Below, piece by piece: positions 3,055 to 22,015 of a DNA stretch of 64,000 nucleotides. The notes beneath the pieces were generated by a model that saw only the letters and a program-made list of their open reading frames with translations, made no database searches and was not told where the DNA came from. The position numbers and the translations under genes are program-made. The stretch's first letter is position 1; each line of letters opens with the position of its first letter. Source of the DNA: Rhizobiales bacterium 64-17 (lineage in GTDB: Bacteria; Pseudomonadota; Alphaproteobacteria; Rhizobiales; Xanthobacteraceae); NCBI GenBank assembly GCA_001899285.1, contig MKWA01000022.1:350507-414506 (forward strand). Direction: 5' to 3'.

Positions 3055-3142
3055 TCGGCAAATTATTATTTGCTCGCCGCGCGCATACCCTGTGCGCGGG
3101 CATTAATCACGCACGCACTCAAAAAAATCATAGGAGAAAGCC

Positions 3143-3514
3143 ATGAATCTCAAAGCGATTCTCGCCGCTGCTGCGACCGTTATGATCATCAGCATTCCCG
3201 GAGCCGTTGCGCAAATGCAGGGAATGGACATGCAGAAGATGATGCCCCAGGCCGATGATACCGCGTCAACCAAAGATATGAAGCAAGCTCATATGGAAAT
3301 GATGAAGAATATGAACTTGGACTTCACCGGGAATCCCGATGTCGATTTCGCGCGCAGCATGGTGAAACATCACGAGAGCGCGATCGTCATGGCCAAGATC
3401 CAACTCAAGCACGGAAAGGATCCTGAAATTCGCCAAATGGCGGAAAAAATTATCAAGGATCAACAAACGGAAATCGCGGAGTTCAATTCCTGGCTCAGGA
3501 ATCACACGAAATAA
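3143..3514 (+). CDS. DUF305 periplasmic protein (CopM-like)
   Basis: The 123-residue product has a signal peptide (AILAAAATVMIISIPGAVAQ) and a Met-rich linker (MQGMDMQKMMPQ, MEMMKNMNLD). A DUF305 core follows, with the FARSMVKHHESAIVMA motif near residues 69-84. DUF305 proteins include the cyanobacterial copper-binding CopM, and Met/His motifs of this type bind copper in the periplasm. An AGGAGAAAG ribosome binding site precedes the ATG. It lies 25 bases before the copper storage protein gene, in a metal operon. Copper binding is inferred from the family and residues. Confidence 0.82.
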   Translation: MNLKAILAAAATVMIISIPGAVAQMQGMDMQKMMPQADDTASTKDMKQAHMEMMKNMNLDFTGNPDVDFARSMVKHHESAIVMAKIQLKHGKDPEIRQMAEKIIKDQQTEIAEFNSWLRNHTK

Positions 3515-3539
3515 CGATTAGCAAGCAAGGGAGCTGACG

Positions 3540-3872
3540 ATGGATCATATAACCGAGGCGATGCAAGTCTGCATTGATGAATGCTTGCGTTGCTATCAGG
3601 CCTGTCTTGGCATGGCGATGACGCATTGCCTTGAGGTCGGGGGCGAACACACCAAGCCAGACCACTTCCGGATAATGATGGCTTGTGCGGAGGTGTGCCG
3701 GACATCAGCACATGTCATGTTGTTGCAGTTTCCCGGCCATAAAGGGATTTGTCGGGAATGCGCGGACGTCTGCGAAGAATGTGCCAACGACTGCGAGCGC
3801 ATCGGGGGCATGGACGGTTGTGTGAAAACCTGCCGATCCTGCGCGGAAAGCTGCCGGGAAATGGCTGCCTGA
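3540..3872 (+). CDS. Four-helix-bundle copper storage protein (Csp, DUF326-type)
   Basis: The 110-residue product has 16 cysteines in CxxxC/CxxC patterns along predicted helices: CIDECLRCYQAC, MACAEVC, ICRECADVCEECANDC and GCVKTCRSCAESC. There is no signal peptide, so it resembles the cytosolic Csp3 branch, which stores many Cu(I) ions inside a Cys-lined helix bundle. It sits between two DUF305 genes in a tight operon (gaps of 25 and 15 bases). The likely job is buffering cytosolic Cu(I). Confidence 0.88.
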   Translation: MDHITEAMQVCIDECLRCYQACLGMAMTHCLEVGGEHTKPDHFRIMMACAEVCRTSAHVMLLQFPGHKGICRECADVCEECANDCERIGGMDGCVKTCRSCAESCREMAA

Positions 3873-3887
3873 AAGGAGAACGCGATA

Positions 3888-4337
3888 ATGAAGAATGCCT
3901 ACTTCAGTCTCGCTGTGCAGACACTTGTGAGTGGCGTCATCATGTATCTCGTGATGTTCGTGATGATCGACTCGTTGGATAGCTTCTTCAATAACCTGAA
4001 TATGTTTTACATGACTTTGATGATGGTGACGCCAATGGTGGTGCTCATGATCCTGGCCATGATGCACATGTTCAAATCGAGCACGGTGAACATCATCCTG
4101 ATTGTTGCTTCTGTCGTTATCTTTTTTGGCAGCTTTGCGCTAATCCGGACGCAAACGACGATTGGCAACACGGCGTTTATCCGTTCAATGGTACCTCATC
4201 ATTCTGGCGCCATCCTAATGTGTCAGAAGGCGACCATTACAGATGGGGAGCTCAAGTCGCTCTGCCAGGAGATCATCAAAAGTCAGCAACAGGAGATTGA
4301 TCAGATGAAGGCAATCTTAGCCCGACTCAAGACCTAG
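3888..4337 (+). CDS. Membrane-anchored DUF305 protein
   Basis: The 149-residue product has three predicted transmembrane segments, near residues 7-27, 40-61 and 68-87. A C-terminal DUF305-type helical domain follows, with the motif FIRSMVPHHSGAILMCQKA and the tail SQQQEIDQMKAILARL. It is Met-rich (MTLMMVTPMVVLMILAMMHMF), as often seen in copper-handling membrane proteins. An AAGGAG site precedes the ATG. It is the last gene of the rightward metal operon. Confidence 0.8.
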   Translation: MKNAYFSLAVQTLVSGVIMYLVMFVMIDSLDSFFNNLNMFYMTLMMVTPMVVLMILAMMHMFKSSTVNIILIVASVVIFFGSFALIRTQTTIGNTAFIRSMVPHHSGAILMCQKATITDGELKSLCQEIIKSQQQEIDQMKAILARLKT

Positions 4338-4528
4338 CCGGACAAGCGGGGGATTGGCGCTGGGCCTCCCGTTTAGGAGGTTCGGACTCTCGCCCGTTAC
4401 CGCGGGCAGGCGCGATGACGCTTTCATCCGTCAGCGTGGTCGCTAAACCGCCCCGCTTACGGAGCATAGAAGCTTAGACCAAGGAGCGTCTCGGAACATT
4501 GGCGGTCAATCAGCAAGGGCATGCGAAT

Positions 4529-5479
4529 TCATTCTTTGCAGTGCTGTACTTCTACAGTGATGTGGGCGATCCTATCCATGCCGGCAAGTCGCTGCTTGTA
4601 ATGGCTAGGCGGCTTTGGCTGATCGCTGACTACCGAGATAATTGCCGCGGAATGCCCGGGACCAAGCTGCCAGATATGCAGGTCGCTAATCCGGTCGCCA
4701 TCGCTCTCAAGTTCTTTCCGGATTTTCCCTGCGATTTCAGCATCGGTGACATCTAACAATACGGCTCCGGCGTCACGGAGCAGTCCATAAGACCAGCTGG
4801 CGATGACGCCAGCTCCGATGATCCCGACTGCGGGATCAATCCATGTCCAGCCATATGTCCAGGCCGTGGCCAAGCCGAGTATCGCCAGCACAGAGGTCGC
4901 TGCGTCGGCCAAGACATGAACGTAAGCAGAGCGAAGGTTGTTGTCGGCGTGCGCACCAGAGACAGGATGCTTCCCGTGATGGTCTTGATGATGAGTGTGA
5001 TCATGCGAGTGCCCATGATCGTGGCTTGCCGCAAGCAACCAAGCGCAGGCGAGGTTCACAAATAACCCGAGACCGGCGATTGCAATCGCTTCCTTGTAGG
5101 CGATCGGTACCGGTGACGACAGCCGGACAACGCTCTCATATCCGATGAATGCTGCGATCATGGCGAGAACAACTGCACTCGTAAATGCCGCAAGATCGCC
5201 GAACTTTCCTGTGCCAAAGCTAAAGCGTGCACTTCGTAAATGGCGTCGCGCATAAACATAAGCTGCGCCGGAAATGCCGAGGGCGGCCGCATGCGTCGAC
5301 ATATGCCAGCCATCGGCGACGAGGGCCATGGATCCGTAGTAATACCCGCCGATGATCTCCGCGATCATCATCAATGTCGTAATGATCACGACCGCCCAGA
5401 TCCGGCGCTCGTTGCGACTATGATGCTCGCCAAGGAAGTCGTGCAGATGTGTCCATTGATCTATGGATTGTGAATGCAT
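4529..5479 (-). CDS. dmeF: CDF-family cation efflux protein, DmeF type (Co/Ni)
   Basis: The 316-residue product has six predicted membrane helices. It carries the DmeF-type first signature (MALVADGWHMSTHAAALGI), an HxxxD pair in the fifth helix (HVLADAATS) and a His-rich cytoplasmic loop (HDHGHSHDHTHHQDHHGKH). The C-terminal domain ends in HITVEVQHCKE. DmeF proteins export Co(II)/Ni(II) by proton antiport, whereas CzcD-type CDFs prefer Zn and lack the GWHM signature. The gene starts 20 bases after the multicopper oxidase stop, so the two are probably one transcript. No dmeR regulator gene is seen nearby. Confidence 0.85.
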   Translation of the reverse strand: MHSQSIDQWTHLHDFLGEHHSRNERRIWAVVIITTLMMIAEIIGGYYYGSMALVADGWHMSTHAAALGISGAAYVYARRHLRSARFSFGTGKFGDLAAFTSAVVLAMIAAFIGYESVVRLSSPVPIAYKEAIAIAGLGLFVNLACAWLLAASHDHGHSHDHTHHQDHHGKHPVSGAHADNNLRSAYVHVLADAATSVLAILGLATAWTYGWTWIDPAVGIIGAGVIASWSYGLLRDAGAVLLDVTDAEIAGKIRKELESDGDRISDLHIWQLGPGHSAAIISVVSDQPKPPSHYKQRLAGMDRIAHITVEVQHCKE

Positions 5480-5498
5480 GAGATTCTCGATCGTATTC

Positions 5499-7376
5499 CT
5501 ATTGTACGTTTAACATCAAAGTCAGGCCGCCAGCGCCTTTCTGTTCGACATTGTTATTCGTCGTATGGTGTGGAATATGGCAATGCACAAGCCACCGGCC
5601 CGTTTTTCGTGCAGTCCAGATTACGTCATAACGCTGGCCGGGACCAACATTGATTGTATCGGCCAAATAACGCGCCGTCTCTTTGAGTGTTTCTCCGTCG
5701 CGCGCCACGATTTCGAACGGACCACCATGAACATGCATCGGATGAACGAAATTATTGTTTGTTCCGATGAAACGTAGCTTGATCGTCTGTCCCACTTTCA
5801 TGGGCACTATATCGGTTTCGGGATATGCTTTGCCATTGATGGTAAAATAATTTGGCATGCCGCCCTCCATCAGCATCGCGGGATAGGTACGCCATTCGCG
5901 CTTGAGCCATTCCTGCAGTTGAATGGTGTACTCGAGATCAGCGATTGGTTCTTTAGCCGGGTCCCTTGGCGCGATGAGGAGTGCTCCGTAAAGTCCGAGC
6001 GCTTGTTGCCGGTCGGGGTGATCGTGGCTGTGGTAAAAATAGGTGCCCGACTGTCCGACATCAAACTCGTATGTATAGGAACCGCCAGGAGCGATCGGTG
6101 CCTGAGTGATTTTGGCGGGGCCATCCATTTCGTTAGGCACGATCAGCCCGTGCCAATGAACAGTCGTGGTTTCCTTTAGATTATTGCGGAAATTGATCCG
6201 GACATGATCGCCCTCGGTCAGTTGAAGACGCGGTCCGGGAACTTGGTGGTTGTAAGCGTAAGCTTCGACCGCGACGTCCGGCAGGATATTCCATCGGATC
6301 ACCGATGCTTCGATATCGAATACCTTTGTACCGTTTTCCAGACGGGGTACGAGCGTCTGATCGCCTTTCGCATCGGGTGGCGCCACATAGCCGACTTGTC
6401 GGGGTGGAACAGCGGCCATATCGCGCATAGCTTCGGCCGGTGTTTCAAATGGCATGATCATGCCGGGGGGCATGATGGCGCCGCCGACATCCTTCGCGCT
6501 CAACGTTAGATTGACGAAGAAGCCGGGGAAAACTATGCCCGCGGCCAGCAAAAGGAATGTCGTTCCAGCCATTGTTGCAAGTTGCGTGCGCGTAGTACGG
6601 CCTTTCATGCCGTGCATCTGATGGCTAGGCTTCTCCTCGCCTCTGGCCTCATGGGATGAGGCCTTCCGAGCGTGGTGGATATGCGAATCAGGTGAATGTC
6701 CACCGGATGGACGGCGCTCGGTCATCAAGCCGTGCTTGAGGTTTTGCTGAACCATCCAGATGTTGAACGGATAAGCGAGAATAAAGCCGGCGATGACGCC
6801 GAGTGACATAACGCCCCAAAAGATGAGCTCTGTCGGCTCCATCGCGCGCATGTCGCGTCCCATCATCAACAAACTCATCACCGGCGCCATACCGGCCATC
6901 ATCGCATTCATGCTGACGAATTCTGGGAGGAAGGACCTCTTGACGTTTTCCCAGTAAGTACCGCCCTTCATCTTCCGCATGAAGAGCGACTGGAAAATAA
7001 ACAGACCGAAAGAAAACCCGACAACATATTCAACAAGGAGATCAAGCCACATCGGCAAACCGAGTCCGGCGGTGATGACAGCCGCTAGGATGATCCCGGT
7101 GGCATCTCCCGCCACGCAATGGATTGTGCTGCTGACTCCTTGCTTCCAGAGTGGCTTAACGAATTTCTCATGTTCCCCCGGATGTGGCTCCTTGTCGGCC
7201 ATTACATAGAGCCACAACCCAAATGGACCCATGTAAAGCGTAACAAGAATAAACCCCCATTTCATCACCGCTGGTTCGGGGTTGTTCTTGTATTGGTCGT
7301 ATCCGACATAGACGGTGGAAACCGCCGCCAGCACAAACCAGACGATCAGGAAATAATCATAGGGCATTGCGATCAT
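5499..7376 (-). CDS. DUF4396 membrane domain fused to a multicopper oxidase
   Basis: The 625-residue product has two parts. Residues 1-215 form a membrane domain with about six helices that matches DUF4396. A His/Met-rich linker (HSPDSHIHHARK, HQMHGMKGR) and one more helix (about 268-291) follow. Residues 345-625 are a cupredoxin-type multicopper oxidase with all four copper motifs: HWHG (407-410), HSHDH (449-453), HPMHVH (545-550) and HCHIPHH (598-604). The type 1 axial position, usually Met or Leu, is Asn609. The catalytic half should face the periplasm and may oxidise Cu(I). It is followed by dmeF on the same strand. Confidence 0.88.
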   Translation of the reverse strand: MIAMPYDYFLIVWFVLAAVSTVYVGYDQYKNNPEPAVMKWGFILVTLYMGPFGLWLYVMADKEPHPGEHEKFVKPLWKQGVSSTIHCVAGDATGIILAAVITAGLGLPMWLDLLVEYVVGFSFGLFIFQSLFMRKMKGGTYWENVKRSFLPEFVSMNAMMAGMAPVMSLLMMGRDMRAMEPTELIFWGVMSLGVIAGFILAYPFNIWMVQQNLKHGLMTERRPSGGHSPDSHIHHARKASSHEARGEEKPSHQMHGMKGRTTRTQLATMAGTTFLLLAAGIVFPGFFVNLTLSAKDVGGAIMPPGMIMPFETPAEAMRDMAAVPPRQVGYVAPPDAKGDQTLVPRLENGTKVFDIEASVIRWNILPDVAVEAYAYNHQVPGPRLQLTEGDHVRINFRNNLKETTTVHWHGLIVPNEMDGPAKITQAPIAPGGSYTYEFDVGQSGTYFYHSHDHPDRQQALGLYGALLIAPRDPAKEPIADLEYTIQLQEWLKREWRTYPAMLMEGGMPNYFTINGKAYPETDIVPMKVGQTIKLRFIGTNNNFVHPMHVHGGPFEIVARDGETLKETARYLADTINVGPGQRYDVIWTARKTGRWLVHCHIPHHTTNNNVEQKGAGGLTLMLNVQ

Positions 7377-7989
7377 GACGATTCTCAGTCTGGGTGGATG
7401 CTTGAATTCGAGAGGTGATGCCTCGAATGCACCTCGGGTACGCCGACAGAAATCTAAGCAAACCCGGCGAGAAAGTATCCTTTTAAATTGATGCCTGGTG
7501 CGCGAATTGCGGGCTGAAAACGTTCACGTCCTTTGCCAGAGGATTGAGAACTGAGTCCGGAGGCAATTTGCTGAACTACGTCGCGAGTTGAGGCTAGGTA
7601 GGCCTGTTGTCCTTGCCACTTGGCGGCATTGAAGAAGCCGCTGGTTTTGAGAGAGTAGCTCGGGCGAGTGCACACCACCGATCGAGGTGCGGTTCAATGA
7701 ACTGTGGGAGGCGCGCGGTGCCCCCATTAAGATGTTCGCCGGCATCTTCGAGCGATGATCTACGCAGTATACTAGGTCAGCGGCCTTTTGCGTGGGTGTA
7801 GAAGGTATAGCAGGCAAGTGGTCCGCTGACGCGGGAAATCGATGTCGATCGTCGCGAGTTCGGTTGGCATGGCTTAAGTATCGTCGTCGCGCAGGAGAAT
7901 GTTGGGGCTGCAATCGACGGCTAGGAAGCAGGCGCGGTATTCAAAGAGATCGCCGATTTCGAGGTATTACGAATCTACCGGCGCGGCGC
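7377..7989. other. Gene-poor spacer between the metal block and the element cargo
   Basis: About 610 bases have no recognisable gene. Short minus-strand frames (for example 7454-7678) have no domain, no good ribosome binding site and compete with other frames. The region may be degraded sequence at an old junction. I found no tRNA or attachment-site copy in it. Confidence 0.4.
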
Positions 7990-8640
7990 CTAGGTCTGGA
8001 GGAATTCCACCGGCATCCGCTCGCTGTCAGTGAACACCGCGGCGGTGAGCTTCCGGCCAAAGACCGCGCCGGTATCGATGTTGACCCGGTTGGGATGAAT
8101 GTCGGGTTTGCCGTTCCGCTGTGGCGTGTGTCCGTGCACGATGAGGCGGCCGTGGTCCGCATCGGCGGATAGGAACGGCTCACGAATCCAGAGCATGTCC
8201 TCGCGGGTTTGTTGGTCTAGCGGGATGCCCGGTCGGATGCCGGCATGGACGAAGAACCGTTGCCCGTCATCGTAATGGGTCGGCAAGTTGCGGATCCAGG
8301 TGAGATGGTCCTGCGGAAATTCTGTCATTGAACTGATCCCGTAGGATCGTAGAGTGGAGTCTCCGCCGCTGTCGAGCCATCTCGCCTCATCGATAAAGTT
8401 GTCGGCACGAAGGAGAAGATCTTCGTGATTACCGGCGAGGGCGATGACCCGTTCGGGATCGGCGGTCTGCATGTCCATGATGGTCTGGGTGACGCCGCGG
8501 CTGTCCGCGCCGCGGTCGATGTAGTCGCCAAGGAAGACGAAGGTGGCTGGCTGAATCTTCGCAAATCGGCGGCAGTCATCGAGCAGCCGCGTGAGGTGAT
8601 CGAGGCAGCCGTGCGTGTCGCCGATCGCGAACGTAAGCAT
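7990..8640 (-). CDS. PPP-type metallophosphatase (serine/threonine phosphatase-like)
   Basis: The 216-residue product has the full calcineurin-like motif set: GDTHG (residues 7-11), GDYIDRG (38-44), GNHED, FFVHAG and VHGHTP. This matches small bacterial PPP-family phosphatases (PrpA/lambda-phosphatase type), which bind two metal ions and remove phosphate from Ser/Thr or small phosphoesters. It lies 3 bases downstream of a small conserved gene and is probably in one operon with the leftward genes from 10118. The substrate is unknown. Confidence 0.88.
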   Translation of the reverse strand: MLTFAIGDTHGCLDHLTRLLDDCRRFAKIQPATFVFLGDYIDRGADSRGVTQTIMDMQTADPERVIALAGNHEDLLLRADNFIDEARWLDSGGDSTLRSYGISSMTEFPQDHLTWIRNLPTHYDDGQRFFVHAGIRPGIPLDQQTREDMLWIREPFLSADADHGRLIVHGHTPQRNGKPDIHPNRVNIDTGAVFGRKLTAAVFTDSERMPVEFLQT

Positions 8641-9158: not shown

Positions 9159-10118
9159 TTATCCGGTGACGAGTTGGTCGACGGGGCTGAAATCGAGGTA
9201 GCGCTCGTGAAGGAGCGACGCGATTTCCGGAGCTCCGGAGCGTTTGATAGCTCCAATGAGTTGCTCGTACGAAATGACGTCGAACGGGATGCCGCCGCCG
9301 GGGAGCAAATGGGTTCGGTAAAGGGCGAGAGCCTCTTGCGCCGAACGGTTCAGGGTCGGGGCGATGACGAGGAGGCGGCCGGCGCTATAGAGGCCGTTCT
9401 TGACCATACTGAAAGCGAGGAGGTGCTGCCGCCAGATTTGCTGCAGTGGCGCCATGCGTAGGGCCGGGTGGTCAGCGTCGATGAAGAGTTCGGATTCTCG
9501 CGAAAGCTCTCCATATTCCGACCTTAGCCTTGCCGGCTGCTCCCAAAGCCCTTCGGTGTATTTTACCTCGCAGGCCACGAAGCCGTGCTCGCCAGAGGTG
9601 GTATTGACCTTGAAGAAGGCATCGAAGGCCGTGCGGTCGTTGGTGAAGGCCGGGTGGCGGCGCGCGGGGCTATGCTCGAACAGAGTCGCGGTGACTTTCT
9701 TGACGAAGTCCGGGCAGATGCGCCGCATCACGGCGGTGGCGAGACGTTGATCGAGAGCTAACGGTCCGATGAGATTGAATGTCGCGGGCATCGACGAGAC
9801 CATGTTGCGATACAGGCGGTCGACCTCGATCAGGGCATCGTCCTCGCGCCAGGCGATTTCCTTGCGGACCAGCTTCGCAATGTCGGGGGTGATAAGATTG
9901 GCATCGCCGTGATCTTCGGCTAGGTAAGAGCCCATTTCGCGGGCCTTGTCGGTATCCGGTGCCCAGCAACCGATCGGCCAGCCTTTGGCTTCACGAAGAA
10001 GGGCCTGGCGTGCGCGCGCGGCGGCGCGGAAGCGGTCGTCGGCAGGTTCGTAGACGTGATGGGCGCGAAGCGCGGCCTCGGGAATGAATGGCACCCGGCC
10101 GGTCAATGCAGTCGACAT
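9159..10118 (-). CDS. PD-(D/E)XK nuclease-like protein (PGN_0703-type)
   Basis: The start at 10118 (319 residues) is chosen because a GAGGG site lies 8 bases upstream. A longer reading from 10154 is possible. The middle of the protein has a restriction-endonuclease-like pattern: an acidic residue in DRTAFDAFFKV followed by ACEVKYTE, matching the D...E-x-K core of PD-(D/E)XK enzymes, then a long helical C-terminus. The architecture resembles PGN_0703 family proteins. A nuclease role is inferred from this motif. It heads a leftward group with the zinc-ribbon, small and phosphatase genes. Confidence 0.55.
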   Translation of the reverse strand: MSTALTGRVPFIPEAALRAHHVYEPADDRFRAAARARQALLREAKGWPIGCWAPDTDKAREMGSYLAEDHGDANLITPDIAKLVRKEIAWREDDALIEVDRLYRNMVSSMPATFNLIGPLALDQRLATAVMRRICPDFVKKVTATLFEHSPARRHPAFTNDRTAFDAFFKVNTTSGEHGFVACEVKYTEGLWEQPARLRSEYGELSRESELFIDADHPALRMAPLQQIWRQHLLAFSMVKNGLYSAGRLLVIAPTLNRSAQEALALYRTHLLPGGGIPFDVISYEQLIGAIKRSGAPEIASLLHERYLDFSPVDQLVTG

Positions 10119-10349
10119 CTGGAAACCCTCGTTGGTGTGGTGCGAGGTATTCAAATGAGGGGCGCAGCAATTTACCGAAAATTTCGCGACATGCTGACGC
10201 AGCTAGCGGGCGAAATGTTGCAGCCAAGACACAGCGCGATTGCGAAGTGAGCGCTCAAGTTAATTCGGGAGGGGGGTAAACTGAATATACTACTTGGAGC
10301 TCCGATCTCATCCACGGTGGATCGCAGCGGCAGCTCCAGGAGCGGAAAT

Positions 10350-11717: not shown

Positions 11718-12032
11718 TTAGAGTTTCAGTCGGGACTGGAATGCGGACATGGTCTCTTCACTGTGGGCAGTGTCTTTTAGGCAGACGGTAATGAAAGCCG
11801 AAAGGCCGCGTTCAGGCAGGATGTCGTTGCTGCCGTCTCGGCAAATGATCCCGCGCTTTGGATAATAATTTAAAGCACCATATTTGATGTGGTGGGGTGA
11901 ACACACCTGGACGGCGATGCCGGCGTTCGCGAGCGCAGTCAGGGTCTGTGTAAGAAGTTGTTCGCGGGCTAATGCCTTAGGCGAAACGGAGTTTGTCGAA
12001 ACGTTAGTATCGTACATATCGGGGATCTCCAT
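11718..12032 (-). CDS. Hypothetical protein in the element
   Basis: The 104-residue product starts at an ATG at 12032 with GAGGATC just upstream. A longer upstream reading lacks a ribosome binding site. It contains a helical stretch (ALAREQLLTQTLTALANAGI) followed by beta-like segments. No domain is recognised. It ends about 45 bases from the terminator of the convergent gene to its left. Confidence 0.5.
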   Translation of the reverse strand: MEIPDMYDTNVSTNSVSPKALAREQLLTQTLTALANAGIAVQVCSPHHIKYGALNYYPKRGIICRDGSNDILPERGLSAFITVCLKDTAHSEETMSAFQSRLKL

Positions 12033-12109
12033 GATTGATCCTCGATATAGAAAGCCGCAGCCTGGCCACCACAGATCGCATGTAGGCATAAAAAATAGGG
12101 GAAGTTCAG

Positions 12110-12136
12110 TCAGGCCGCTTATTAACAGCGGCCTGA
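12110..12136. other. Perfect inverted repeat in an intergenic region
   Basis: TCAGGCCGCT and AGCGGCCTGA form a perfect 10-bp stem with a 7-base loop, lying upstream of the leftward gene that starts at 12032. On the minus strand a T-run (TATTTTTTAT) follows about 13 bases later, so an imperfect terminator for the gene at 12318-12860 is possible. Confidence 0.4.
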
Positions 12137-12275
12137 TTAGGAGGGATTGTTCGATGGATAAGGTTTCTGCGGGGCCGCGGGGCAGGGGCAGGGGATATAG
12201 TGTTCCGCTTTGCGCGGAATCAGAACAGTCCAAACTGGCACAAGTTCGAGATGATCAATGCAGGAGACGAGTTGA

Positions 12276-13400: not shown

Positions 13401-13628
13401 ATGAATGTCGATCGACCATGGGCCATTGACCGCCTCCCGGAAGAACTTGCTCTGCAGTGCGTTCTTCGCACCAGCGAAGCCGCGTGCTTCTGCGGCGTTT
13501 CAGTTTCCCATTTTCGTCGCCTTCATTCCCACGGGGTGCTGCCCGCGCCAATTCGGCTCGGAGAGCGAAGGCTTGGATGGCGCCTTGGGGATCTCATCGC
13601 ATGGCTGCGCAGCCGCCAATGCAATTAA
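13401..13628 (+). CDS. AlpA-family helix-turn-helix regulator (excisionase-like)
   Basis: The 75-residue product is a single winged helix-turn-helix of the AlpA/MerR-like type: LRTSEAACFCGVSVSHFRRL (recognition helix), then a wing and GWRLGDLIAWLRSR. AlpA proteins activate integrase or excision genes on prophage-like elements. The gene is 25 bases upstream of the VapE-like gene. A Cys-rich variant (CFCGVS) of the usual helix is present. Confidence 0.75.
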   Translation: MNVDRPWAIDRLPEELALQCVLRTSEAACFCGVSVSHFRRLHSHGVLPAPIRLGERRLGWRLGDLIAWLRSRQCN

Positions 13629-13653: not shown

Positions 13654-15084
13654 ATGACTGACGAATCTATTCTGCCGATGGACGAGCAACCGCAAGATCC
13701 ACTCGCGGTGGCAACCGCTGATGAACTTGTCGTGTCCTTGATCGAAGACGAATTCGATCTGGAGCTCCTGTTCGATGGCGGGCTCCGCCCGAAGTCGAGC
13801 CCGATTTTTGCCGACTCGCCGCAAACACTACAAAAGTACCTGAGCGTAGCTGAACGCTCCCACCGTGAGGTGTTCGACGATATCCTCGGCATCGTCCATA
13901 CGCGCGGCTACGAACACAAGGCGAGCGAGCTGGCTCCGGCCTTGCGTCGGTATTGCCGTCGTAAAGAGCACGAGCGTTTCAATACGGTGATGACGCCTCT
14001 GCTGATGCCGGAAGCTCAAATCGACCAGCTGCGGTGTGAAGCTGAGTGGGAAAAGCTCGGTACACTGTTCGATGCGCCCGCCCATCTTAGCGTGCATATC
14101 TTTAAGCATTTCATTTGGCTGGTTAAGCAGAAGGCGACCGGCAGAACCGGGAAGGATCACCTCATGCCTATCCTGTTCAGCTCCGTTCAAGGCTCTGGCA
14201 AGACAACGTTCGTGCGCAAATTCTTGGGTCCGCTACGCGAGCTTGCAAGTGCCGATACGCTACTGTCTGATTTCGCTGACCGGCGGAGTGGGACGATCTA
14301 TCGCTATCCAGTCGTCGTCATCGATGATATGGAACAGTTGCCGAAGGCAGCGTTGCCGGCCTTGAAATCACTGATCACGGCTGAACGTATCAATCGTCGA
14401 CAAATTATGACCTCGCAAAATTCGACGGTGCGACAGCGTGCGACCCTGATTGGTACAGCCAACGCTCCGGTGCAGGAACTTATCGACGATCATAGCGGCT
14501 ATCGCCGGTTCGTCACCTTGCCGTTCCGCAATGGCGACGAAGATAAGGGCGGCGACCGGGCCATTTGGCACACGGTGTCTTCGCTCGACTACGAACTTCT
14601 CTGGCTGTCGGTCGAAACCTTCAAACCGAGTCCTATCATCACGGTGCGCCAAGAACTGCTGGCCTTCCAGAACAGCGCGAGACCGATTTCGGCGCTCCTG
14701 CGTTGGCTCCGCGAGTTGGATCTTGGATGTCGAGAGGTGCGTGCCATCACGACGCGCTGGGGCGTGCGCGCTGACGGTTTGCACGAGCTCTATCTGCAGA
14801 CTGGTGTAAGTATCTCGCGTCAGAAGTTTGCGGAAGAAATGCTTTGGCATTTCTCGGACCCTTCTACTCCCTTCGGGGCCAAGCGGAAGGTAGAGATTGG
14901 CGCGGTGTACTGTGTCAAGGAAGGCTGGTCTCAACCGATAGCGGAAGCCCCGAATGTCCCGCCAATCGTGCCGCTTTCAGACCCGTCAGCATCGTCAGCT
15001 CCGTCAGGTCCGTCAGGTTCGTCAGCCAGCCAGCACCATATTGTTGCTTCGCAAGCGGCGGGTGAACTCGCCGGGTTGAGCTAA
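13654..15084 (+). CDS. VapE-like P-loop ATPase (element replication helicase-like)
   Basis: The 476-residue product has an N-terminal acidic region and a P-loop domain. The Walker A is SVQGSGKTT (residues 177-185), the Walker B is VVIDDME (221-227) and a sensor-like GTAN is at 267-270. This fits the virulence-associated E / superfamily 3-like ATPases found in satellite and integrative elements, usually with a primase domain or partner. The reading frame is open upstream to 13405, but the ATG at 13654 follows the alpA-like stop. The C-terminus has a Ser/Pro/Gly-rich repeat coded by tandem CCGTCAG-like units (14990-15040). Element replication is inferred. Confidence 0.72.
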   Translation: MTDESILPMDEQPQDPLAVATADELVVSLIEDEFDLELLFDGGLRPKSSPIFADSPQTLQKYLSVAERSHREVFDDILGIVHTRGYEHKASELAPALRRYCRRKEHERFNTVMTPLLMPEAQIDQLRCEAEWEKLGTLFDAPAHLSVHIFKHFIWLVKQKATGRTGKDHLMPILFSSVQGSGKTTFVRKFLGPLRELASADTLLSDFADRRSGTIYRYPVVVIDDMEQLPKAALPALKSLITAERINRRQIMTSQNSTVRQRATLIGTANAPVQELIDDHSGYRRFVTLPFRNGDEDKGGDRAIWHTVSSLDYELLWLSVETFKPSPIITVRQELLAFQNSARPISALLRWLRELDLGCREVRAITTRWGVRADGLHELYLQTGVSISRQKFAEEMLWHFSDPSTPFGAKRKVEIGAVYCVKEGWSQPIAEAPNVPPIVPLSDPSASSAPSGPSGSSASQHHIVASQAAGELAGLS

Positions 15085-15196: not shown

Positions 15197-17209
15197 ATGA
15201 ACTGGGAAGAAGAGTACCGCCCTCACTCCTTCGAGGACGTGCGCGGCCAAGACGTGGCCGTGCGATTGTTGTCTGGTCTTGCACGAAGGCGAGCCGGTCG
15301 ATCGCTCTTGCTGGCAGGAGCTATCGGCAGCGGCAAGACATCGTTTGCCCGCATCCATGCGCGCGCCCTCAACTGTGACGACCCAAATCAAGCGGGTTCA
15401 CCATGCGGAGCCTGTCGGCCCTGCCAAATGCCCGCAGCTGAAGTGATGATCGAGATCAATGCCGCCAGCGCTGAAGCGCGAGAAAAGTATGTCGCCGCCA
15501 TGTTGCAGGGGTGGAACCGAAAGCCGGTTGACTGTCGGTTTAGGGTCATCTTCTTTGACGAGGCGCACAATCTCCCTGCAGGTACCCAGCAACTGTTGCT
15601 AAAGCCAGTCGAGGAGCCCGCGCCCGGAATCGTATTCATTTTTGCAACGACTGAACCACATGGCCTTACTGCGGCCCTGCGGTCTCGTTTGCAGCTGATT
15701 CGAATTGAGCCATTTTCCTCCGCAGTTGCTCTCGATTTACTAGAGTATGTAGGGCGCCGTAAAAACCTGTCGTTCGATCGAGAGGCGCTCAGCCTTGTCG
15801 CGGCGGCCAAGCCGTATCCCCGCGACATGATTATCGGGCTGCAGCAGCTTAGCGAATATGGACGCCATATTGATGTCCAGCTGGTGAAAGACGTTCTTGA
15901 TCTGAGCATCTGCGACCATCTCGAGAATTACATGCTGGCACTCGCCAGCGGCGATCGTTGGGCGCAGGTTAGGGCTATGCACGATTGGTCCGACGAGGAG
16001 ACCATTAAGGCACGGTGGGTCCGACTGTTTCTCCTTACGGTTTATTATAACGAGGTGCTGGGGCAGCGTGTTGTCGCCGATGCGCTTTGTTATGGCATGC
16101 ATCGGACGAGGGCGAGCTTTGTGCAGAGTCTCGCCAAGCGGCACCAAATCGCTGACAAAGCGGCATTGGCGACATTCGTCGAGAGCATGTTGGTCTTTTG
16201 GAGTGAGCGCGGCTCTGAGGAACCGGCAAAGCTCAAATTAACTTTTGCGCTCTTTGAGGCGGTGTGCAGTGCCGGAGCTGGTTCCAATGGCGTACTGAGC
16301 CGGACAGAATATAAAGCGGTTCCTTCTATTTCCGTGCCTCCCGCAACTATCGCTGCAGCTACCACGGTCGCGGATATCTTTCCTCCCACCGAAGACGACG
16401 GTTTCATCACGCCCGAGGAGGTTCGAGAGATTGTCAACCGGGCGAGCTTTCTAATCCAGCACCACGGTTCATATTTCACTGTTGCGGCACGTGTCGAGGC
16501 GCCGGCCTCGCGCGACATGACGGAAACTGACGCCATTGCCGTCGCCAGCTCACGTTGCCAAGTGCTGTTGACAGCCTTGGCCGCGGATAAGCCAGTAGCG
16601 AGTATCCTGCAGCTGGAAAATGATAGCGGAGCGATTGTTGCGCGTTTGGTCGCATGTCATGCGGTGGATGATACGGATCGGGCGTCATCTTGCATTAGGA
16701 AATGGTGCGAGGAGACAGAAGCTATGGGGCTGATCGTCCACGTCAGAGAAGCACCCGAACGCGATAGTGGCGAGTTCCATTGGAGTGCGGTTCGAGAGCT
16801 CTGTGCGGGATTTTGTGAGGATGCTGCTGTTCCAGTTCAACAGACCCTTCGCGCTGTCTTGGGTATTTCTCGGAATGATCGGCGATCACCTTCGCCGATT
16901 AAAGGGGCGAGACTGATATTCAGCGGCCAAGTAAGCGGAACTGAGATTGCTATAGCTTGCGCAAACGAGATGAAGCCACTGTCTGCTTTCGATGCGAAAG
17001 CCTGGAAACAACTCTATTCGGGGTGGGAGGAGTTTGAGCATGTCGACCGGATGGCAGAAGTCGCCGTTCGCAGCGAGATGCTCATCAGTCTAGCTGGTCG
17101 GTATGGCGATGGTTCCGAAACCTATTTGGCCGAGGTTACCAAGCTGCTGAGTTGGTGGCGCTCGCTTGGAGCCCAAGGGCGTGCGCGAAGCTGGCAGGTG
17201 TGGTGGTGA
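15197..17209 (+). CDS. DnaX-like clamp-loader ATPase with a long unique C-terminus
   Basis: The 670-residue product starts like DNA polymerase III gamma/tau (EEYRPHSFEDVRGQ). It has Walker A GAIGSGKT (41-48), a complete DnaX zinc module (Cys 60, 70, 73 and 76) and Walker B FFDEAH (119-124). It also has the EEPAPGIVFIFATTEP sensor segment and an SRL in place of the usual SRC at 163-165. About 400 residues beyond the AAA core are unlike tau and unknown. It is not the chromosomal dnaX, judging by the divergent C-terminus and the element context. Its stop overlaps the start of the next gene, a second clamp-loader-like protein. Confidence 0.82.
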   Translation: MNWEEEYRPHSFEDVRGQDVAVRLLSGLARRRAGRSLLLAGAIGSGKTSFARIHARALNCDDPNQAGSPCGACRPCQMPAAEVMIEINAASAEAREKYVAAMLQGWNRKPVDCRFRVIFFDEAHNLPAGTQQLLLKPVEEPAPGIVFIFATTEPHGLTAALRSRLQLIRIEPFSSAVALDLLEYVGRRKNLSFDREALSLVAAAKPYPRDMIIGLQQLSEYGRHIDVQLVKDVLDLSICDHLENYMLALASGDRWAQVRAMHDWSDEETIKARWVRLFLLTVYYNEVLGQRVVADALCYGMHRTRASFVQSLAKRHQIADKAALATFVESMLVFWSERGSEEPAKLKLTFALFEAVCSAGAGSNGVLSRTEYKAVPSISVPPATIAAATTVADIFPPTEDDGFITPEEVREIVNRASFLIQHHGSYFTVAARVEAPASRDMTETDAIAVASSRCQVLLTALAADKPVASILQLENDSGAIVARLVACHAVDDTDRASSCIRKWCEETEAMGLIVHVREAPERDSGEFHWSAVRELCAGFCEDAAVPVQQTLRAVLGISRNDRRSPSPIKGARLIFSGQVSGTEIAIACANEMKPLSAFDAKAWKQLYSGWEEFEHVDRMAEVAVRSEMLISLAGRYGDGSETYLAEVTKLLSWWRSLGAQGRARSWQVWW

Positions 17210-19470
17210 TGCTTGACATCGACTTCATCTGCAATCCGCCGAAAGCTCTGACCGGTCTTATCGTGTATCGATATCGGACCGGTGTGTTGCGCGGACAGTT
17301 CTTGACCGCCTTAGAAAAGCTCGCCACACGGCTCGGTGGTGTGCTCATTGGGTGCGAGCCTGGCACGTTGGAATCCGAGTGGGGCGCGGCGGGCCTGTTT
17401 GATGGGATTCGTGTCATCGATCTCGCGAGTGCTGACTTAAAAGAGAAGACTGGTTTCGGACCGGGAATACTCACGCTGACTCGTGCTGAGCCTCTCATGC
17501 CGACCGTCCTTTGCGTACGTGGATCGGCGCTTGATCGTGCTGGGACTAATGAGCACCGGCCGCTCTTTATCGACGAAACCGTGGTGAAGAAAGAGAATCT
17601 ATGTGAAGTGTTGCAGTTTCTCGCACGATGTCATGATTTACCCATTGAAAGTGCGGAGCGGCCGTCGGAGCCAGCCATCGCGTATTTTGATGGCTATCTC
17701 CAAGCTGAGGGCGGGTCACTTGATCTTGGCTCCTTCATCGCCGAATACGATCGTGCAGCTTTGCTTTATACCGACGGTCCGACTGGAAAGTTCATAGCTC
17801 CCAGTTGTGCCGCGCGAGTCCGAGAGGCGCGCTCTTATGTGGTGCAGTCGCTAGACCGATTTGTGGAAGGCAAAGCAGAGTGTGCTGCGGCCGATCTTGT
17901 TCGTGCGTTTGCCATAAAGGCACGACGAGGCTGGACAGCCTACGAGCTCGCGGAGGAGCTCTGTCGCGCGAGCCGCGTACTCGTCGATCGAGGTGTGGAT
18001 AACGGTACTCGCTCGAGCAGTCGCAAGCAGAGGCGGAAGAGCATCCGTTCTGCGGTCGGTTGGGCTCTGCAGGTGGTGCCTTTTGCTGGGCCATTTGTTG
18101 AGAAAAGGAGCGAGCTTCTCGTCAAAACATCTGAAGAGTTTCTTATCTCGCTTGAGGGCCTCGCGCGCGCATACAAAGCACATGCTCGGGCTGCCTTCTA
18201 TGGACAAAGGGTGGGCCACAGGGCGGACATAGTAAAAGTCTTGCGCACGGCTTCCGAAGAATTCACGGCTCCGGAGGAGCTCGACGAGCACGTGCGACTG
18301 TCTCAGGCACTACTCCGCGCCATTGAAGATGGAAGTGATGAATGGTTACAGCGCATGAAACGCGATGTGGTGGATCGAGTTTGCCCAATTCACGAGCTGA
18401 GGCGCGATAGCCAAACGTCCGTTCCGTCGCCGAGGTCATTCGCGGGACTCATTGGGCGACAAAAGGTGAAGAGCACGATTCGTCAACGATTTATCGACGG
18501 AAAGCATGACGGGCCTCTTGTTATCGTGGGGCCTGCTGGCATGGGTAAGAGGTCGATGGCACGGCTTTATGCGAAAGCCTTGCTTTGCCTCGAGCGCGCG
18601 CCCGGCGATTACGAGCCGTGTTGTCGATGCTCCTCATGTCTCGAATTCGAAACATCTGGAAATTTCGGTTATATCTCAATTGATCTCAGGCACATCAAGG
18701 CACATGAGCATGTTCTGCGTCACGTGGACGGCTTGAATCAGGTCTCTTTCGCTGATCATCGGATTATTGTTCTGGCCAATTCTGAGCAAGCGTCAACGTC
18801 GTTGGACGCGTTCTTGAAGCCATTTGAGGATAGAGCGCACAAAACGACATTTATCGTATTGGCGACAAACGAAGCGTCGTTACAGTCTGCCATATTGTCT
18901 AGAAGCCGCGTCGTGCGCGCCGACCGTCTCGGCACGCAAGATGCAACGTCTTTGATACTGGAACGATTGCCGCGCTCCAGTTACTCTTCTGACGTTATTT
19001 CTTTGATCGTGCTGATGGGAAATGGCGTCCCCGGAGAATTGCTCCGTTTAGCTGACCTCGTCGACAGGGCAGTCGCGCGGACCCTTACGCAAGCACGCAG
19101 CGTCCTAGCATTGGACTGGGGTGCTGATACGCTCGCGTTCTGGAGGATGATTTTCTGCTGCGAATTCGATGGCGTGCGTGTTGACGCCCTAATTAGGCAG
19201 TGCTCACCGAAGGAAGCGGTCTCGCGTGCTGGGGCAGTACTCGTGTGCCTTTGTCGGGGTGAGTTGTCGCGTGAGCCGGCTTTACTTGGATTGGATTCGG
19301 AGTTTGGTGCGTGTGTCGAGCAGCTATCACTGCGATGCAAATTGCTTGGGTTGACCGAGGGGAAGCTGGTAGTGGCCCTGTTGGGCCTATGGTTGGCGGG
19401 GGATGTTTTCGATCGGGTGAGTTTCTTGCTTCTAGCAGAGAAGGCGGTTCGGCTTGTAAAACATAGCTAG
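17209..19470 (+). CDS. Delta-prime-like clamp-loader paralogue with an unknown N-terminal half
   Basis: The start is the ATG at 17209, which overlaps the previous TGA (TGATG) and implies translational coupling. The 753-residue product has about 400 unknown residues. A clamp-loader AAA domain follows, from GLIGRQKVKSTIRQRF onward. It has P-loop GPAGMGKRS (about 441-449, with Arg after the Lys), a Cys zinc module (LLCLERAPGDYEPCCRCSSC, split across the motif) and no DExx box (RIIVLANSEQAS). A FIVLATNEASLQSAILSRSRV segment completes it. The lost Walker residues make it resemble the catalytically inert delta-prime (HolB) subunit paired with an active DnaX-like partner. Confidence 0.78.
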   Translation: MLDIDFICNPPKALTGLIVYRYRTGVLRGQFLTALEKLATRLGGVLIGCEPGTLESEWGAAGLFDGIRVIDLASADLKEKTGFGPGILTLTRAEPLMPTVLCVRGSALDRAGTNEHRPLFIDETVVKKENLCEVLQFLARCHDLPIESAERPSEPAIAYFDGYLQAEGGSLDLGSFIAEYDRAALLYTDGPTGKFIAPSCAARVREARSYVVQSLDRFVEGKAECAAADLVRAFAIKARRGWTAYELAEELCRASRVLVDRGVDNGTRSSSRKQRRKSIRSAVGWALQVVPFAGPFVEKRSELLVKTSEEFLISLEGLARAYKAHARAAFYGQRVGHRADIVKVLRTASEEFTAPEELDEHVRLSQALLRAIEDGSDEWLQRMKRDVVDRVCPIHELRRDSQTSVPSPRSFAGLIGRQKVKSTIRQRFIDGKHDGPLVIVGPAGMGKRSMARLYAKALLCLERAPGDYEPCCRCSSCLEFETSGNFGYISIDLRHIKAHEHVLRHVDGLNQVSFADHRIIVLANSEQASTSLDAFLKPFEDRAHKTTFIVLATNEASLQSAILSRSRVVRADRLGTQDATSLILERLPRSSYSSDVISLIVLMGNGVPGELLRLADLVDRAVARTLTQARSVLALDWGADTLAFWRMIFCCEFDGVRVDALIRQCSPKEAVSRAGAVLVCLCRGELSREPALLGLDSEFGACVEQLSLRCKLLGLTEGKLVVALLGLWLAGDVFDRVSFLLLAEKAVRLVKHS

Positions 19471-19490
19471 CGGGCAGAACACCACGAGGA

Positions 19491-20579
19491 TCACTTGTTT
19501 TCCCAAGCGTCTCCGATGCGATTTTTCATGATCTCCCAGCTATTGCCTGGGATGCGGGGTCTCATTCCATTCGCGTCCTTCGGTACTTCCCACGGAAAAG
19601 GATGGGATAAATCGACACTGTTATCCGTGCGGCCGCTTTCGTCGTAGGACCGATGCTTCGGGAACTCGGCAGGCCTCCAGTTTGGTTGTGTTTTGGCGCG
19701 CTTCTTGTCGAAAGGCCCCATAAATTGATGGAGTTCTAGCTCCCTAATCACAGAGCAAGCAAAGCGCATCGGTGGCCCGTCGTGATAACGTCGGCTTTTA
19801 TCCTTACGAAAATCGACGTTTGTGTCGCTCACCGAGAATTTTACGCCGAAGCATTCTTGGTAAGCTTCGGCGATATAGTGCACGATTGTTTTGTCGGGTA
19901 ACCGGTCGCTGCGCGGACGGAAAAATTTATAATACATCCGATTGATATCCTGCTTCAGTTTGTCCGTCGTGAAGCAGAGAGCCAAAGCGAAAACAGTTGG
20001 TGGCGCCAGCCCAAAGGCAGCTTTGGTCTTGCTAAGGTGTTCGGCTAATCCCTTCAAAACGCGAAGCGAGGAGGGACCAGGTTCCTCGATTCTTAGGCGG
20101 AAGTCTCGATAGTCGATTTGGCGGTTGCTATTTTTCCAGATGTCGACAGCAGCAGCTTGGAAAAGATCCATGAACGGATCGAATGTCGCGGCATTTGTCC
20201 ATTTTTCGATCGATTCGACATCGCTCCGCAGCATGCCTTTCAGCAATTTATCAAGATCCGTTGAGAGTTCGCGAGGTCCTAGCGAATGCTCGATGTATGC
20301 GATGTTGTAAATCGCACGTAAACGCTGGGCAATTTCGGCAACTTTTGCGTCTGTCAACACGCGGTCGGGAAAGTTCGGCAGGTTGCCATCTTCATCGTAC
20401 ATCCCATCGATGACGCGAATTGCGGTTTCATCTGGTATCGTGAGATCAAAAAGGGTCGGCATTCGCTGGTGATCAACCGGAGACACTGGCGACGCACTGG
20501 ATGTCGGGGATGGCGGCGTTTTTTCGCTGGGGGACTGATCCGACGCGGAGTTAGAGGGTGGTGACGATTCTTGAGACAT
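19491..20579 (-). CDS. Hypothetical protein adjoining the integrase
   Basis: The 362-residue product has a Ser/Pro-rich disordered N-terminus (about 40 residues). A mainly helical body follows with LFDLTIPDETAIRVIDGMYDEDGNLPNF, split by loops, and a C-terminal region rich in Arg, Pro and aromatic residues. No family is recognised. Its start lies 29 bases inside the integrase gene's 3' end in another frame, so the two are probably co-expressed, and its 3' end converges on the clamp-loader operon. Confidence 0.62.
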   Translation of the reverse strand: MSQESSPPSNSASDQSPSEKTPPSPTSSASPVSPVDHQRMPTLFDLTIPDETAIRVIDGMYDEDGNLPNFPDRVLTDAKVAEIAQRLRAIYNIAYIEHSLGPRELSTDLDKLLKGMLRSDVESIEKWTNAATFDPFMDLFQAAAVDIWKNSNRQIDYRDFRLRIEEPGPSSLRVLKGLAEHLSKTKAAFGLAPPTVFALALCFTTDKLKQDINRMYYKFFRPRSDRLPDKTIVHYIAEAYQECFGVKFSVSDTNVDFRKDKSRRYHDGPPMRFACSVIRELELHQFMGPFDKKRAKTQPNWRPAEFPKHRSYDESGRTDNSVDLSHPFPWEVPKDANGMRPRIPGNSWEIMKNRIGDAWENK

Positions 20580-21720
20580 AGTTTGACCACAGTGTTAGAG
20601 CCGCCGCTTTTTCCTCGCGATAAGTAGCGCGGTTGTAAATTCCTGCAACGCCGGCGCGTGTACCAGACACATGATTCAGGACGGCTTCCACGACGTGAGG
20701 GGAGACGCCGTTGTTCGCCATCCCGGTGGCCGCGGTGCGTCGGAGGTCATGTATCCGCCATGGCTTTATCGGGGGACGAAGAGGCTGCAACTCCAGATCT
20801 AGTTCTCGTTTGGCTTTTGACCAGCCAGAGAAGCCACCTTTTCCCGATCCAAAGACGATATCCCGGCCGATAAAGCGAGGCGTACTATCCAAGATCGACA
20901 CCGCCAGCTTGGACAGAGGGATTTCATGCACTCGGTGGTTTTTGGTTCTCTCTGCCGGCAGCGTCCAGATTGCTTTTTCCAGATCGATCTCTGGCCACCG
21001 CATGCTGCCAACTTCGTCCCGACGCTGGCCGGTTAACATCAGAAGACGGATGATGCGCCCATAGTCATAGTCTCCGCTGGCTTTCCATACAGCGGCAATT
21101 TCGTGATCGGACAGGACGTGGTCGCGCTTAATCTCTTCCCCTAATTTGAGAGTGCCGACGACCGGATTGTGATCCGCGAGGCCCATCCCGAGGGCATAAG
21201 AATAAAGTGCTGATAGAGCAGCCCGGGCACGGTTGGCGGCAATCGGGCCGTTTTGCTGGGCAATGTCGTCGAGCTTCGCTGCAATAAGCGCTCGATTAAT
21301 GGAGAGTAGTGGCAGTTCCTTGAGGGAAGCCCAGTGCTTTGTGAGATGGCGGTTCACCTCTTCAAATGACCGGGGCTTGAGCCGACCTTGGGCGTTTTGA
21401 AGATATCGGGTAGAGACCCTATCGAAGGTGACAGCGCGCCGAGCAGCAGCTTCTGCTTTTTCGGCATGGGGATCTGCCCCGAGTTGGACCCGAGCCAAGG
21501 TCTTTCTGGCATTGTCGCGCGCCATCTCCGGAGCAATCGCGTCGACGCGGCCGATAGTTTCGCGGCGTGATTTTCCGCCCGCCCGGTACTGCACCACCCA
21601 GACTTTGCCGGTGGGGTTAAGCCGCACGCCGAAGCCGGGCAACTCGTCGTCCCAGACGATGAGATACGGCTTGTCTTTGGGCAATGTGAGGGTGGCGATC
21701 GCCTTGCGGGTAAGGCGCAT
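20551..21720 (-). CDS. Tyrosine-type site-specific integrase (P4-like)
   Basis: The 389-residue product has an N-terminal DUF4102-type arm-binding domain (WDDELPGFGVRLNPTGK). The C-terminal catalytic domain carries Arg233 (TGQRRDE), His324 and Arg327 (HDLRR), His350 (LNH) and nucleophile Tyr362 (IYNR). This is the layout of P4-like integrases that insert into tRNA 3' ends, and a tRNA-Arg fragment lies 147 bases from its start. All catalytic residues are present, so it is likely active. Confidence 0.93.
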   Translation of the reverse strand: MRLTRKAIATLTLPKDKPYLIVWDDELPGFGVRLNPTGKVWVVQYRAGGKSRRETIGRVDAIAPEMARDNARKTLARVQLGADPHAEKAEAAARRAVTFDRVSTRYLQNAQGRLKPRSFEEVNRHLTKHWASLKELPLLSINRALIAAKLDDIAQQNGPIAANRARAALSALYSYALGMGLADHNPVVGTLKLGEEIKRDHVLSDHEIAAVWKASGDYDYGRIIRLLMLTGQRRDEVGSMRWPEIDLEKAIWTLPAERTKNHRVHEIPLSKLAVSILDSTPRFIGRDIVFGSGKGGFSGWSKAKRELDLELQPLRPPIKPWRIHDLRRTAATGMANNGVSPHVVEAVLNHVSGTRAGVAGIYNRATYREEKAAALTLWSNYVSRIVTTL

Positions 21721-21866: not shown

Positions 21867-21916
21867 CCAGACTACGAATCTGGGGGTCAGGAGTTCGAAT
21901 CTCTTCGGGCGCGCCA
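21867..21916 (+). other. tRNA-Arg(ACG) 3' fragment, element attachment site
   Basis: The fragment holds a full anticodon arm: stem CCAGA/TCTGG around loop CTACGAA, with anticodon ACG. It continues with the T arm (loop TTCGAAT), the 3' acceptor strand CGGGCGC, discriminator G and an encoded CCA. The expected 5' half (GCGCCCG start and D arm) is absent upstream. It is therefore a truncated copy left by integration. The intact tRNA should sit at the element's other end, outside the window or undetected. Confidence 0.8.
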
Positions 21917-22015
21917 TTCTTCCGGATTGGATCAGCCACCTGAATCGACGGCCGGCCTATCTCCGGACGAGCCTGTCGTCGCATGCGCGATGATGCGTGC
22001 CGGCCGATGCAGACC

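Follow-up and report, generated by a model that had tools for sequence, protein, structure and literature searches.

Few machines of the cell are as conserved as clamp loaders, and where these act is normally decided by primers and the single-stranded DNA-binding protein SSB. In the known loaders the work is divided between the motor subunit gamma, which carries the ATPase motifs, and the ATPase-dead subunit delta', and in the delta subunit of E. coli the Leu-Phe of HolA binds the clamp. Phages can also encode a clamp loader, as in the case of T4 gp44/62. Here, we analyze two adjacent genes, P1 and P2, in a stretch of 64,000 nucleotides of contig MKWA01000022.1 of Rhizobiales bacterium 64-17 (referred to as the window; coordinates given without a locus or contig name are positions in it). 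We suggest that P1 and P2 together constitute a complete minimal gamma-delta-delta' loader of an integrative element, which carries a dead Rep domain on its gamma-like subunit and loads the host clamp on element DNA; we assign a probability of roughly 0.56 to this reading. Searches of the published literature, covering listings and the starts of abstracts, showed no description of such a system, in agreement with the first-pass annotation of this DNA, a reading of the letters alone that had been unable to match the gene pair to a described one. The two genes and their parts are the following:

15197-17209, forward strand: P1, a DnaX/gamma-like AAA+ protein of 670 aa with an extra 300 residues at the C-terminus
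15197..16306, forward strand: residues 1-370 of P1, a DnaX/gamma-like AAA+ module with zinc cysteines and a probable collar domain
16307..17206, forward strand: residues 371-670 of P1 (P1-C), a nuclease-dead domain derived from HUH/Rep proteins, as judged by hhalign against stand-alone Rep-like proteins
17209-19470, forward strand: P2, a protein of 753 aa with a delta'-like AAA module and an extra 400 residues at the N-terminus
17209..18408, forward strand: residues 1-400 of P2 (P2-N), a part that is probably delta (HolA)-like and has Leu-Phe as residues 63-64, at the position of the Leu-Phe of HolA
18421..19470, forward strand: residues ~405-753 of P2 (P2-C), a delta'-like AAA module with a dead ATPase that retains the arginine finger and zinc cysteines

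The two large open reading frames (ORFs) are present as first described, and the stop codon of P1 overlaps the start codon of P2 by one base, the shared A of TGATG. The start of P2 is most likely the ATG at 17209, which we prefer over an upstream TTG at 17152.

The locus resembles the E. coli DnaX complex in the gamma-type motor motifs, the dead delta' with its arginine finger, the zinc cysteines and, probably, a delta with Leu-Phe. It differs from this complex in that the delta-like and delta'-like parts are fused at half of the loci analyzed, in that a Rep-derived domain replaces the tau domains, in that the loader sits near an integrase and VapE, and in that both proteins score below the equivalog cut-offs. 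A second point of comparison is the ORF2/G2P-type HUH Rep family PF23343, which we take to be inovirus-like: P1-C is homologous to stand-alone proteins, one of which passes the model of this family, but the fused domains lack the complete set of HxH, Tyr and Lys. Like the phage and plasmid clamp loaders of PHROG 5846, P1 and P2 would form a loader on a mobile element; unlike these, they display the Rep fusion and the delta-delta' fusion, and no recognised clamp accompanies them. With the AlpA/VapE satellites and islands (phage-inducible chromosomal island (PICI)- or P4-like), finally, the element shares an integrase, a VapE-type ATPase and, possibly, an AlpA regulator, its AlpA-like gene scoring 0.8 bits under the cut-off; to our knowledge, a clamp loader is not a part of PICI- or P4-like satellites.

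The clamp-loader AAA fold that had been read from the letters is recognised in both proteins by the Pfam model DNA_pol3_delta2 (68.1 bits for P1 and 50.8 bits for P2 at a cut-off of 27). With the NCBIfam model dnaX_nterm P1 scores 165.6 bits and P2 64.6 bits, both below the equivalog cut-off of 250 bits, and P2 reaches 56.8 bits with the holB equivalog model (cut-off 180.6). The AAA+ module of P1 matches a gamma chain in the PDB by phmmer (7.9e-25), and P1 scores 149.4 bits with the clamp loader family PHROG 5846. The conditions that the first-pass annotation had named as refuting its reading do not apply: DnaX models cover only the first 270-370 residues of P1, and the remaining halves of P1 and P2 resemble neither tau nor HolB domains, a Rep fold (P1) and HolA/delta (P2) being indicated instead. 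The host has its own DnaX gene elsewhere, whose product shares 33% identity with P1 over residues 6-262. Unlike P1, host DnaX shows no zinc cysteines in the alignment, which argues against P1 being a fresh copy of the host gene. With host HolA at G000:C24:68326 and host DnaN at G000:C24:251453, we rejected the idea that P1 and P2 are the ordinary clamp-loader genes of the host (host HolB was not sought). The loader genes in the relatives are evidently under purifying selection, as judged by ratios of nonsynonymous to synonymous substitution rates (dN/dS) of 0.055-0.33 for the pairs with estimable dS; these values are rough, dS being high and the pair L038/L039 saturated, and they all come from other loci, none from the window.

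The division between a gamma-like and a delta'-like subunit was examined in an alignment with E. coli DnaX and HolB of 12 non-redundant loci: the window, L020, L021, L022, L035, L036, L037, L038, L039, L041, L042 and L043. L040 was excluded (its P2-N equals that of L039), and L034 and L022 represent one contig region, whereas L035, with a P2 that is truncated, apparently through an insertion, and L043, which has a short P2, were retained. The subunit make-up of known clamp loaders is also given in PMC12153180. P1 of the window retains Walker A (GSGKTS), Walker B (FFDEA), sensor 1, the SR finger and the sensor-2 Arg, and at all 12 loci P1 keeps the P-loop GKT, the Walker B DE, the SR finger and the sensor-2 Arg. 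In P2-C of the window Arg replaces the P-loop Ser/Thr (GMGKR), Walker B is gone (VLANS) and SR is present; likewise, the P-loop Ser/Thr is lost, the Walker B DE pair is not intact and SR is kept at 12 of 12 loci, as in E. coli HolB, with the first Walker B Asp remaining in L022 and L038. Because this division is the same at all 12 non-redundant loci, it is not due to chance. P1 as well as P2 has four zinc-type cysteines. In these respects the first-pass annotation, which had assigned an intact ATPase to the first protein, a delta'-like loss of motifs to the second and a zinc module to both, was correct.

P1-C had been regarded as unknown sequence, which is no longer tenable. Stand-alone proteins of ~300 aa related to P1-C are present in L120, L123 and L128 (E 2.3e-7, 3.1e-5 and 1.1e-8, respectively). 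With the Pfam model REP_ORF2-G2P (PF23343; cut-off 27.8) the L128 protein passes at 32.1 bits, the L120 protein misses by 0.3 at 27.5 bits and the L123 protein is weak at 14.1 bits; the L120 and L128 proteins also match 'replication initiation protein' in PHROG (3.3e-4 and 7.8e-5). By hhalign, the 15 fused domains match the three stand-alone Rep-like proteins with a probability of 98.3 and a P of 1.2e-14 (1e-15 in the opposite direction), the P1-C domains of the 12 loader loci alone give a P of 2.7e-11 against the stand-alone Rep set, and all six other families used as a control score below 19 against this set. A PDB search with the stand-alone Rep proteins gave nothing useful, and the L128 Rep had no match in plasmids and none in viral contigs. 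On the profile alignments we regard P1-C as homologous to the stand-alone Rep-like proteins. HxH, Tyr and Lys are intact in all three of these, whereas the full set is found in none of the 15 fused domains: Tyr and Lys are each absent from all 15, no fused domain has both His, each single His is kept by one (L038 and L035), and the second His is changed to Arg in 11 of 15, with LC-A/G next in 13 of 15. Since the full set is missing throughout, nicking is not expected, and P1-C is best described as a retired Rep domain that, to judge from these residues, has lost its active site. Its dN/dS is low (0.095-0.26 in three estimable pairs from other loci; rough, with high dS), so the domain seems to be used for another purpose than nicking.

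For P2-N, the description as unknown sequence is probably no longer right. By hhalign, P2-N scores 26.3 against alphaproteobacterial HolA and 21.4 in the reverse direction, and each of seven other families scores lower than HolA against P2-N (11-17). With a wider HolA set the scores are 29.8 and, in reverse, 35.9 (P 0.0055 and 0.0008, probability 7-24%). The alignment of P2-N and HolA is co-linear over 243 columns from the first residues and has the Leu-Phe in register. The maximum among 150 column shuffles is 22.6 and 21.1 and the reversed alignment gives 20.4 and 15.7; whole P2-N is higher in both directions. The Leu of the clamp-element position is found at all 12 loci and the complete Leu-Phe at eight of them. 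Finally, P2-N is a gene of its own, placed between the gamma-like and the delta'-like genes, at six of 12 loci. The alignment with HolA together with this gene order, gamma-X-delta', makes delta the best reading of P2-N; we consider P2-N quite probably delta-like, and this identity as moderately supported.

P2 or its two parts lie directly behind P1 at all 12 loci, with gaps between genes of -16 to +57 nt for the starts as assigned. P2 is fused in the window, L020, L021, L035, L036 and L043, and it is split into separate genes for P2-N and P2-C in L022, L037, L038, L039, L041 and L042. On a tree of P1 the fused state needs two changes, which implies that fusion occurred once with one later split or that it occurred twice; support for the fork holding the window row is limited. 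Within the genomes searched, this is a rare system, observed only in this order. P2-N alone matched two of 397 genomes of the order, its own and that of Methylobacterium sp. Leaf465 (G315), two of 149 genomes in the family of Leaf465, and only its own among 385 genomes in a search of the class; a P1-C profile found only its own genome among 337 in the class. A four-row profile matched 11 of 391 genomes in its own family, own genome included, and two short peptide patterns used on genome contigs (110 matching stretches) brought up at least three loci, two from Methylobacterium and one from Bradyrhizobium sp. RP6. Viral contigs held no relative by the peptide patterns used. No plasmid or phage record covered 80% of P2 and no plasmid record covered 80% of P1 (P1 was not searched in phages); with 0 records at this coverage, a known phage or plasmid gene pair was rejected. 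Around ~7982-8055 of L035 the end of P2 adjoins two ORFs, presumably istA/istB of the IS21 type, and a 92-aa ORF beyond them clusters with loader proteins.

As the first-pass annotation had remarked, no clamp gene accompanies the pair: in all 12 genomes dnaN is on a different contig or at least 148 kb off (Pfam DnaN N-domain; a very divergent clamp could escape). With no clamp gene near, we propose the host beta clamp as the substrate of the loader. In this model, P1 would be the ATP-burning gamma-type subunit and P2 would unite in one chain a delta-like clamp gripper and opener with a delta'-like stator, which has a dead ATPase and would complete a P1 site with its arginine finger. Where tau has its C-terminal domains, P1 carries a Rep domain (HUH, ORF2/G2P-like) without nicking residues, and this dead domain may recruit the loader to the element origin or initiation complex. 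The VapE-type ATPase would open the DNA, a delta-gamma3-delta' ring would put the host beta clamp on it, and the element, once excised, would thereby have priority in the use of host Pol III. We infer the pentamer, the use of host beta, the targeting to an origin and a role in replication; among the possible uses, copying of the excised element with the host clamp is the best supported. Of the two roles considered in the first-pass annotation, an element-specific replisome or a defence or interference system, the replisome is better supported, with gamma-like, delta'-like, probable delta and Rep-derived domains beside VapE and an integrase. Tentatively, and with more doubt than confidence, we extend the model to an origin-addressed loader in which clamp loading, and not nicking or recruitment of a primase, commits the host replisome to the element, a retired rolling-circle initiator having been joined to a full loader.

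A dead initiator fused to the motor subunit, together with a delta-delta' fusion, would represent a new mode of replisome targeting. Moreover, the fused and split forms of the loader that occur side by side would be a natural experiment in loader architecture, and the system makes it testable how an integrated element without a recognised clamp is copied.

The genes around the pair that belong to its setting are the following:

7990..8640, reverse strand: metallophosphatase in the left arm of the element (PF00149, 64.4 bits; cluster in six of 12 loci)
9159..10154, reverse strand: PDDEXK_13 nuclease, divergent upstream, apparently an element backbone gene (PF20796, 306.2 bits)
11718..12233, reverse strand: small conserved gene of unknown function (one similarity cluster in eight of 12 loci; no Pfam match)
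13401..13628, forward strand: AlpA-like regulator/excisionase (PF05930, 20.2 bits, 0.8 below the cut-off of 21)
13654..15084, forward strand: VapE-like P-loop ATPase (PF05272, 38.8 bits, cut-off 25; DUF5906, 38.4 bits, cut-off 27.6)
19491..20579, reverse strand: protein of 362 aa and unknown function adjoining the integrase (no Pfam match)
20551..21720, reverse strand: tyrosine integrase with Arm-DNA-bind_3 (PF00589, 62.6 bits; PF13356, 52 bits)
21867..21917, forward strand: 3' part of a tRNA-Arg(ACG) gene to the right of the integrase, a probable attachment site

The integrative setting that had been proposed is supported by the VapE-like ATPase, the integrase and the partial tRNA-Arg gene; the AlpA-like gene stays just under its cut-off, and a gene that is AlpA-like by eye lies at the equivalent place in L006/L021. 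The VapE-like ATPase would probably be the helicase of the element. The neighbourhood recurs in other genomes, where the first-pass annotation had proposed to look for it: VapE precedes P1 at eight of 12 loci, and in Leaf465 the order is integrase, unknown gene, AlpA-like gene (by eye), VapE, P1, P2. In the latter genome the VapE-like protein (L021 4554-6065) has an N-terminal DnaJ domain (47.9 bits). By blastp clustering, L021 and L022 have integrases like that of the window close to their loader genes, and the protein encoded at 19491..20579 has a possible counterpart in L021, with 27% identity to the same-place protein of L006/L021 in a gappy, weak alignment. Hits of models for AlpA, the 362-aa protein and the integrase that were built from the very rows they recover are not counted as evidence. 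The partial tRNA gene matches the intact tRNA-Arg(ACG) gene at G000:C22:289725-289801, ~82 kb leftward, over 53 bp at 91% identity, and G+C is 0.53-0.61 to the left of ~22 kb and 0.60-0.66 to the right. In our view, this indicates an old or composite island; the tRNA repeat is imperfect, and no empty site was seen.

The PDDEXK_13 gene lies divergently upstream at 10 of the 12 loader loci, the two exceptions being Methylobacterium loci on contigs of 13.6 and 15.6 kb. In the family it is present in 18 of 238 genomes in 21 copies, seven of which are known loader loci. Of the other 14 loci, eight lack a P1-related gene in the fetched stretch, three have a single divergent P1-like protein (L125, L127 and L130) and three have a stand-alone Rep-like gene (L120, L123 and L128). 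A DUF2958-like gene is found beside PDDEXK_13 at 10 of these 14 loci (L117-L130), with or without replication-type genes, and PDDEXK_13 looks like the backbone of an element family.

Several observations weigh against a complete loader that serves replication, and most of them concern P2-N. P2-N is unmatched in Pfam (12 members), in a PDB profile search and in NCBIfam (3 members only), of which the blank result with the HolA model PF06144 says little, because even HolA itself is detected by this model in no more than 25 of 30 genomes and, in a second set, 22 of 40, leaving 18 of 40 without a match. The HHalign probabilities for P2-N being HolA are only 0.8-24%, and with the alphaproteobacterial HolA set alone the P in the reverse direction is 0.072. 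P1-A and P2-C, which are sure relatives, score 71.7 and 60.9 against the wide HolA set, compared to 29.8 for P2-N. With E. coli HolA alone the result for P2-N is null (13.4), whereas alphaproteobacterial HolA scores 67.6. Parts of P2-N alone keep the register but score only 19.7-27.6, partly inside the shuffled range. The missing family match, the low probabilities, the null result with E. coli HolA and the scores of the parts would all fit P2-N being an unrelated adaptor, in which case P2 would be a delta' with an extra arm and the loader would borrow delta (HolA) from the host. Whole P2-N, however, exceeds all 150 shuffles as well as the reversed alignment, all seven other families score lower than HolA, and P2-N stands as its own gene between the gamma-like and delta'-like genes at six of 12 loci; we therefore consider an adaptor possible but on balance doubtful.

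Other points against the model concern what the loader is for. VapE is absent at four of 12 loci, and no polymerase gene or origin turned up, although there was no systematic search for either. L125, L127 and L130 each encode a single P1-like protein, beside which no P2 relative was found in the fetched regions. These three proteins lack the SR finger as well as P-loop or Walker B residues that vary from one protein to the next, which suggests that clamp loading may not be general in the wider family. The loader could instead act in defence or inter-element interference, sensing foreign replication at primer-template junctions and directing the upstream PDDEXK_13 nuclease at it. The divergent position of the nuclease at 10 of 12 loci and the four loci without VapE would be in agreement with this, as would L022, where the called PDDEXK_13 ORF extends into the beginning of the P1 ORF, and where genes for DUF4917 and HATPase proteins lie past the integrase. 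On the other hand, with eight of the 14 other PDDEXK_13 loci lacking a P1-related gene in the stretch and three having a stand-alone Rep-like gene, the nuclease looks like element backbone, and the domain fused to P1 derives from a replication-initiator-like protein. PADLOC gave nothing for P2 and the nuclease, only SspC for P1 (10.8 bits, E 0.019) and only E 0.004 and 0.0023 for neighbours; a known defence system was rejected for want of a match of note. Defence in this form thus appears unlikely. We give still less credence to a takeover of the host, in which the loader would compete for, sequester or unload host beta and so slow host replication, instead of copying the element from a given origin. 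Here, the retained motor motifs of P1 and the lack of a recognisable clamp gene nearby are as expected, but a Rep-derived domain under purifying selection (three estimable pairs) suggests a DNA or initiator address, and a VapE-type ATPase is linked at eight of 12 loci. Between these explanations, we favor the model in which P1 and P2 load the host clamp on element DNA.

Some observations on other loci bear on clamps. Bradyrhizobium sp. RP6 has a second, divergent DnaN-like gene (G1131:C11:324014-324367, E 1.2e-15) on another contig than the loader. Proteins of 407-468 aa are encoded, in divergent orientation, beside the P1-like genes of L125 (9370-10710, reverse strand), L127 (3355-4761 and 4758-6080, forward strand) and L130 (9600-10823, forward strand). 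The L125 protein matches a processivity factor in PHROG (E 0.0069); hhalign of the L127 and L130 candidates against DnaN was not significant, the PDB gave nothing useful and Pfam no match for L125, L127 and L130, and the L130 protein had no plasmid match. These proteins are possibly element sliding clamps, for which there is a hint only, and clamp-like genes beside these P1-like genes would, again as a hint, fit replication. The region 8219-9369 of L125 (reverse strand) holds two overlapping frames that by eye resemble one broken gene related to the clamp-like protein of L127.

Two minor observations concern further genes. Beyond the loader and integrase of L022, DUF4917 and HATPase_c_3 genes (16074-21245) may form a defence cassette. 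In the window, the region ~3100-7400 encodes multicopper-oxidase-like and cation-efflux-like proteins, which by eye resemble cargo for the handling of copper or other metals.

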